Positions 59,751 through 60,881 of a DNA stretch of 64,000 bases are shown piece after piece; position 1 is the first letter of the stretch, and the number at the start of each line of letters is the position of its first letter. A program made the position numbers and the translations under genes. Under the pieces are notes generated by a model, which saw only the letters and a list, made by a program, of their open reading frames with translations, was not told where the DNA came from and searched no databases. This DNA comes from an uncultured Dehalococcoidia bacterium (lineage in GTDB: Bacteria > Chloroflexota > Dehalococcoidia > Lucifugimonadales > CATOSD01), in assembly GCA_951812395.1 (NCBI GenBank), contig CATOSD010000002.1:1106442-1170441 (forward strand), read 5' to 3'.

Positions 59751-59937
59751 TACAGACCACCTATGCAGCGTCCTTTACGCCCGCCAGATCGCCACGGAAA
59801 CGGATGTTGAGCGCGAATCTGTCTCAGATCTCCAGGCGGAAAACACGGAGGCCTTGGCCCTTGGATTCCCGCTTGCGCGGGAAAGACGATCTCTCGCGCA
59901 CCTACTAATTTGAGACAGGCTCCGGGCGCCCGAAAGT

Positions 59938-59972
59938 TTGACACGCAGCTTCATACTTCATTAACATGAAGC
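59938..59972 (+). promoter_or_regulatory. Promoter and inverted repeat before the GreA-like gene
   Basis: TTGACA, 18 bases, TAACAT. The 7-bp inverted repeat GCTTCAT...ATGAAGC (59948-59954 and 59966-59972) overlaps the spacer and -10, so it could be an operator. AAGGAGG precedes the ATG further on. Confidence 0.5.
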
Positions 59973-60002
59973 TAACGGACTTATGGCGAAGGAGGCCGAT
60001 CC

Positions 60003-60881
60003 ATGGAATCCAAAGAGACCAACGAGTCCATAACTATCCTACAGGCTGCGGGCAAGTACGCCGAGCATGTGGCTGCGCGCAACGCCAGGCGGGCTAGCGC
60101 CAAGTCTCGCGCCGCCAAGAGCGAGACTGATACGGTCCCTGCCCCCCGAAACAATACGGAGCTGGACAAGTTTATAAGGTGGTGCAAGCCAGACACGCCC
60201 TTCGCCAAGGTGAAACCCGCGGATATTGGCGCCTACGCTGAAAGGATGGCCGGCAACGGCACCACTCCGCAAGCCGCCGAGCGGCTCCAGATAGTGCGAG
60301 AGTTCCTCACCTACTCTCACAAGAGCGGGTTTACCGACCAGAAGCTCGCTCTGCACCTCCGAATCCGCCGGCCCCGCAACAGCGCGGTGAAGACCGGCAA
60401 CGCGGACAAGCAGGCGCCCAACGAGATCACTCGCGAAGGGTACGAGCAGCTGGCGGAGGAACTGGGTAAGCTGAAGTCCGAACGTACCAAGACGGCTGCC
60501 CAGATACAACGGGCCGCCGCGGACAAGGACGTCCGCGAGAACGCTCCCCTGGAGGCCGCCAGGGAACAGATGGGCCTGGTCGAGTCCCGAATCCGTTCGA
60601 TAGAATCGACCCTCGAGTCCTCGGTTGTAATCGAGGCCAGGACCGGCGGAATTGTCACCACGGTGAGACTTGGAATGCGCGTCCAGGTGCGAGAGTCCAA
60701 GACTAAGCGGGAACAGACCTACATGCTGGTCAGCCGAAGCGAAGCGAACTCGCTCGAGAGAAAGATCTCCGACGTATCTCCGCTCGGCAAGGCGCTCATC
60801 GGCCAGAAGAAGGGCCAAACGGTCGAGGTGCAGACGCCCCGAGGCAAGTCTCACTATTCGATCATCAACATAACGGCCTAG
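60003..60881 (+). CDS. GreA-like factor fused to an integrase-type SAM-like N-terminal domain
   Basis: The product is 292 aa. Residues about 50-125 (ELDKFIRWCKPDTPFAKVKPADIGAYAERM ... REFLTYSHKSGFTDQKLALHLRI) look like the core-binding (SAM-like) domain of tyrosine recombinases, without a catalytic domain. Residues about 145-292 are GreA/GreB: a coiled coil with DVRENAPLEAAREQM, where the D-x-x-E tip pair expected to aid RNA cleavage is present, then a C-terminal FKBP-like domain ending SPLGKALIGQKKGQTVEVQTPRG. It probably binds RNA polymerase; the role of the N-domain is unknown. I recall similar fusions in Dehalococcoidia. AAGGAGG precedes the ATG. Confidence 0.8.
   Translation: MESKETNESITILQAAGKYAEHVAARNARRASAKSRAAKSETDTVPAPRNNTELDKFIRWCKPDTPFAKVKPADIGAYAERMAGNGTTPQAAERLQIVREFLTYSHKSGFTDQKLALHLRIRRPRNSAVKTGNADKQAPNEITREGYEQLAEELGKLKSERTKTAAQIQRAAADKDVRENAPLEAAREQMGLVESRIRSIESTLESSVVIEARTGGIVTTVRLGMRVQVRESKTKREQTYMLVSRSEANSLERKISDVSPLGKALIGQKKGQTVEVQTPRGKSHYSIINITA

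Follow-up and report, generated by a model that had tools for sequence, protein, structure and literature searches.

The gene at 60003..60881 lies on the forward strand of the window (the whole stretch of 64,000 nucleotides that was analysed) and encodes a protein of 292 amino acids, in which a core-binding domain of the tyrosine-recombinase type is joined through a basic linker to a GreA module. Its orthologues across the class are of similar length, and the open reading frame is preceded by a ribosome-binding site, AGGAGG at 59990-59995, seven bases 5' of the ATG at 60003. The features of the locus are these:

59938..59967, forward strand: sigma-70-type promoter, TTGACA-18-TAACAT, matching at 10 of 12 positions
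59947..59973, no strand assigned: perfect 8-bp inverted repeat, AGCTTCAT-N11-ATGAAGCT, which overlaps the promoter and is a candidate operator
60003..60881, forward strand: greA-like gene, with open reading frame, ribosome-binding site and start codon
60024..60371, forward strand: tyrosine-recombinase core-binding (SAM-like) domain, residues about 8-123, from hhalign, PDB profile, Foldseek and AlphaFold2 (AF2)
60333..60422, forward strand: basic C-terminal edge of that domain and flexible linker, residues about 111-140, with an NLAxHxRxRK motif and disorder at 126-135
60426..60629, forward strand: GreA N-terminal coiled coil, residues 142-209, PF03449 (GreA_GreB_N) at E=5e-16, matching 1grj and 3aoi
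60528..60539, forward strand: D-V-R-E tip, residues 176-179, where D176 and E179 correspond to D41 and E44 of Escherichia coli GreA
60660..60875, forward strand: GreA C-terminal globular domain, residues 220-291, PF01272 (GreA_GreB) at E=2e-21, with the IS..SP.G.A loop

The original prediction, made from the letters alone, had placed a promoter with an inverted repeat before the gene, and both elements are real; promoter-like sites this good number two in the region, against a mean of 0.4 in shuffled sequence. Neither the rest of the window nor the rest of the 3.7-Mb genome holds another full match to the inverted repeat, and nothing comparable was seen upstream of the fused genes of relatives. 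For these two reasons we rejected a conserved operator, and the repeat across the promoter is possibly a local one. The gene had also been said to follow the second copy of a repeat, and this was not borne out: the 722 bases upstream of the gene have no second copy in the window at E<=1e-3, and a looser limit returned only short matches at chance level. The same upstream region holds an isolated palindromic element, TGGATTCCCGCTTGCGCGGGAA, at 59862-59883, which is present once in the window and looks like an element of the REP/dRS3 type. By eye, the neighbours in the window are oligopeptide ABC transporter genes upstream and an enoyl-CoA-hydratase-like gene downstream. In many relatives, rnpA stands divergently upstream of the fused greA and a gene for a FAD-linked oxidase/Fe-S protein or for TerC stands downstream, a neighbourhood that is not common to the window's own locus; yidC and jag were also noticed, by eye, beside rnpA at these loci. 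We set synteny aside as a clue to function, reading the surroundings in relatives as a housekeeping neighbourhood.

The C-terminal half of the protein is readily recognized, for residues 140-291 form a complete GreA module. Both Pfam domains pass their cut-offs (59 bits against 24.5 for PF03449, 76 bits against 26.9 for PF01272), the RNA-polymerase-binding loop IS..SP.G.A is conserved, and D176 and E179 are in place, which bears out the earlier reading of a GreA/GreB module that retains its D-x-x-E tip. The coiled-coil tip of GreA from E. coli engages the catalytic Mg2+ through D41 and E44 (PMC7527559). The fused protein shares with that factor (1grj) both Gre domains, the equivalents of these two residues and the polymerase-binding loop, at 34% identity and a TM score of 0.90 by target length; it differs in carrying about 140 additional N-terminal residues, which hold the core-binding domain, and in reading 'NAPL' after the tip, where GreA has 'NAEY'. 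It also misses the NCBIfam cut-offs for GreA (124.2 against 139 for TIGR01462, 132.6 against 145 for NF001263), and the gene is therefore filed as a variant of the GreA family and not as plain GreA. An acidic tip is necessary but not sufficient for cleavage, since Gfh1 keeps its acidic tip residues and does not cleave (PMC4598747). The Gre module of the window's species is itself mildly basic (net charge +5), so that basicity by itself is not a specific sign.

Single-sequence searches say little about the N-terminal part. On their own, the first 141 residues matched nothing in Pfam, the sole hint from NCBIfam was XerD at E=0.012, and single-sequence searches of Pfam, PHROGs and the PDB gave nothing usable. 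When individual members of the family were scanned against Pfam, SAM-like families headed the list, weakly (best E 0.002), and they did so weakly for the basal members from outside the class as well. Profiles are far more telling. A family profile of 53 orthologous N-termini (A2), aligned by hhalign with a comparison profile of XerD N-terminal domains from the window's order (A3), gave 96.5% at E=9e-10, while 30 column shuffles reached at most 1.1%, reversed columns 0.08% and the Gre part 0.10%. Against the PDB, A2 had its best match in 3nrw, the N-terminal domain of a phage integrase/site-specific recombinase, at E=3e-4. The relation also appears from the other side, for when 30 genomes of the order are scanned with a standard XerD HMM, three fused greA genes come up at E of about 1e-6 to 1e-5, with coordinates that agree with fused loci found independently. 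In the reciprocal search of the window's genome, the domain profile returned only this gene, at 8.6e-32, and, next, a XerD gene at 0.0076; across the class, five further matches below 1e-6 that we read comprised four tyrosine recombinases that are intact and carry H-x-[LF]-R-H motifs, and a second fused GreA.

The predicted structure agrees with the profiles. In the AlphaFold2 models the domain is helical and predicted with confidence (pLDDT 88 at full length, 83 for the domain alone), with helices at residues 12-35, 51-61, 72-83, 89-107 and 115-118, and a Foldseek search with the domain model found integrase or recombinase core-binding domains in all of its best 25 matches, at probabilities up to 1.00 and TM scores up to 0.64, with no E-value below 0.04. 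The catalytic domain (RKHRH/Y) is absent: after residue 123 come the disordered linker and then GreA. We regard it as confirmed that residues about 8-123 are the four-helix core-binding domain of tyrosine recombinases without its catalytic partner. An integrase-type SAM-like domain lacking the catalytic part is what had been predicted, and a sensitive profile search of the N-terminus did find the recombinase match, though single-sequence Pfam missed the domain; automated annotation consequently misses the added domain. As an example of a core-binding domain taken from a recombinase and reused without the catalytic half, the protein is clear-cut.

Compared with XerC/D and lambda Int (the Phage_int_SAM families), the domain shares the four-helix fold, profile homology, basic residues and an NxA-basic exit motif, but it has no catalytic domain, is attached to an RNA polymerase factor, and has not kept the Xer-invariant T26, Y30 and R81 (numbering of the order's XerD). 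In a divergent set of the fused proteins, the position of K56 is basic in 89%, R94 in 96%, R99 in 100%, R120 in 98%, and R122 and R123 in 96%; H118 is histidine in 94%, and the hydrophobic core of F57, W60, F101, L102 and L115 is conserved. R94 and R99 lie on the helix that aligns with the one bearing K82/K88 in the order's XerD, and the conserved basic residues fall on the helices and the edge that face DNA in recombinases; in XerH, the helical bundle of the N-terminal domain and helix F insert in the major groove (PMC5241119). Among 75 fused proteins, residues 111-140 have a median net charge of +4 and the linker (124-140) is 14-28 amino acids long, with pLDDT below 50 at residues 126-135 in the AF2 model. 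Since T26, Y30 and R81 are not retained, contact with DNA, if there is any, has changed, and from the pattern of conservation we infer that the domain may still bind nucleic acid, in a changed and probably non-specific mode, and that it probably grips nucleic acid beside RNA polymerase. The putative DNA-binding anchor of the original prediction would fit the conserved basic positions, while the loss of T26, Y30 and R81 tells against it, so that the prediction is supported in part.

The same pattern can be read in another way, in which the core-binding fold has become a protein-protein module that docks on RNA polymerase, on another elongation factor or on the ribosome and binds no nucleic acid. 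The loss of the Xer-invariant T, Y and R positions would suit such a module, as would the fact that the strongest conservation includes the core and surface aromatics F57, W60 and Y/F104, plus H118. We nevertheless consider it rather unlikely, though a serious rival, because R94, R99, R120, R122 and R123 are kept in 96-100% of the divergent set, as nucleic-acid contact would predict.

The fused gene is found in 56 of the 59 genomes of the order, intact in 54 and interrupted by contig ends or a stop in two; among the exceptions, one genome (G004) has a tip-less short GreA only and two have neither. A survey of other Chloroflexota, which had been proposed together with the original prediction, extends this range: the phylum sample has the fusion in 44 of 46 other genomes of the class, including single-contig genomes of 1.4-2.1 Mb that are, by size, probably Dehalococcoidaceae, and in some three dozen genomes from beyond the class. 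With the domain profile alone, it is recovered from 124 of 135 good class genomes and, counted by genus, from 98 of 107 (SAR202/Dehalococcoidia). On a tree of 113 Gre modules, a single change divides the fused from the unfused genes, and the class's short paralogs fall together in one clade (99/97). This single change, together with the spread through the class, means that the fusion is old and mainly vertical in descent, a housekeeping gene handed down within nearly all of the class. The thought that it is debris, a broken recombinase joined in frame to greA recently or by chance, has the absence of the catalytic domain in its favour and nothing further; with the fusion kept in so large a share of the class genomes and traceable to one change on the tree, we reject it and give it next to no credence. 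In phage records the Gre module alone finds matches, and none spans the fusion. The fused GreAs of three families outside the class (f85, f109 and f123; L204-L207) branch apart from the main fused clade and have a more Xer-like NPA / DP..RVRLPR exit motif with a canonical tip of the GDLRENAAY type, as would be expected of an intermediate or basal lineage.

It is at the tip that fused and unfused genes part most sharply. Within the class, the fused proteins have D in 53 of 53 and E in 52 of 53, so that D..E is intact in 52 of 53 and the exception is D..D; outside the class, it is intact in 22 of 22. The short GreA paralogs of the class, in contrast, have D..E in none of the 36 whose tip is readable (L169-L188, L233-L250): the 18 from the same order have GGTVDN or a near variant there (G..D, for example GGTVDNAEY), and in the 18 from other orders the tip is S..N, G..N or the like. 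Among short GreAs from the rest of the phylum, 19 of 20 have [DE]..E. In the class members sampled, therefore, only the fused gene encodes a Gre factor whose tip is intact. Besides it, no other Gre gene was found in the window's 3.69-Mb genome or in the complete genome of 'Ca. Lucifugimonas marina' JH1073, and 24 of the 44 class genomes from other orders have a fused match only. Apparently, the fused gene is the normal Gre factor of the class and not an oddity beside one, to judge from these genomes. Neither this nor the inheritance through nearly all of the class was part of the original prediction. The loss of the tip in all 36 short paralogs suggests that they are a class-wide, non-cleaving secondary-channel factor of the Gfh kind. 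The fused protein does share the fold of the secondary-channel factors Gfh1 and Rnk (Foldseek matches 3aoi and 2f23), but unlike Gfh1 it bears an added N-terminal domain along with its canonical D-x-x-E tip; the tip-less short paralogs fit the Gfh1 type better, and Gfh1/Rnk are their likely model. One genome has a second core-binding-GreA fusion (L270, G460:C103:5000-6416) whose tip region is degenerate (SGMPLDDAPSVDW), a lineage-specific duplicate that probably does not cleave.

GreA is usually regarded as a small, uniform and freely diffusing factor. Longer proteins that end in a GreA module are on record, among them PRK14720, of 906 positions, and PRK06330, of 718, which is titled 'transcript cleavage factor/unknown domain fusion protein', but their N-terminal parts are unlike that of the fused protein and the match is confined to the Gre end. 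In the TPR-GreA/B-C-PIN conflict proteins, a GreA-derived domain likewise brings another domain to RNA polymerase; these fast-evolving proteins carry only GreA/B-C, with TPR, PIN and variable effectors (PMC8195603), whereas the fused protein has the full Gre module, is encoded by a conserved housekeeping gene and shows no TPR or PIN in Pfam. Gre fusions are known and so are core-binding domains, and it is their combination that would be the new element; no earlier description of a core-binding-GreA fusion was found in the literature searched, which covers few subscription journals.

We think it rather likely that the Dehalococcoidia, as a class, have as their main transcript-cleavage (anti-arrest) factor a GreA with an exapted recombinase core-binding domain, through which it would grip nucleic acid near the polymerase. 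In this model, the core-binding domain, without its catalytic partner, would have been joined once, and early, to the N-terminus of GreA. As in the rest of the GreA family, the globular domain would dock at the mouth of the secondary channel of RNA polymerase while the coiled coil brings D176/E179 to the active-site Mg2+ and stimulates cleavage of backtracked RNA. Because the added domain is tied to the base of the coiled coil by a linker of 14-28 residues, Gre geometry would leave it outside the channel, where, with its basic surface, it may hold duplex DNA, or other nucleic acid, close to the elongation complex, increasing the factor's local occupancy or its retention where polymerases have arrested. 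In many relatives, the tip-less short GreA would then be a Gfh-like competitor or regulator that does not cleave. A bolder version, which we advance only tentatively, is that the whole class has been rewired, such that its only cleavage-competent Gre is tethered to nucleic acid by the exapted domain and its unfused GreA is a tip-dead competitor.

The same geometry invites a different partner. A domain near the channel mouth, where RNA emerges, with a basic surface and a basic linker, might bind long backtracked RNA by its 3' end at the exit of the secondary channel and thereby extend cleavage to deeply backtracked complexes. The parent fold, however, is a binder of duplex DNA, and no precedent for RNA binding by a core-binding domain was found in this analysis; we judge this idea improbable, though a rival to reckon with. 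Less probable still, and very unlikely in our view, is that the fusion directs the factor to specific places in the DNA (dif-like sites, the terminus) and so resolves conflicts of transcription with replication or recombination. In its favour, the domain derives from the Xer/integrase superfamily, and E. coli GreA is reported to influence fork collisions and break repair (PMC3078854, PMC6829880); against it, the Xer residues that read bases are not conserved, and xer was not seen in synteny with the fused gene in the neighbourhoods examined.

An ecologically important class, the SAR202 marine bacteria and, by lineage, the organohalide-respiring Dehalococcoidia, appears to have as its sole tip-intact GreA a version with an added DNA-binding fold, and the basic transcription-rescue machinery of the Dehalococcoidia seems to be built unlike the textbook one. 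This raises the question whether the recruitment of anti-arrest factors is a limiting step that tethering can solve. In Dehalococcoides mccartyi CBDB1, the GreA CbdbA743 has been detected in the proteome and is acetylated in stationary phase, strongly so at K17 (PMC7918482). The likely Dehalococcoides genomes of the sample carried the fused gene and no other Gre match. If CbdbA743 is the fused form, residue 17, in the numbering as published, would fall in the added domain.
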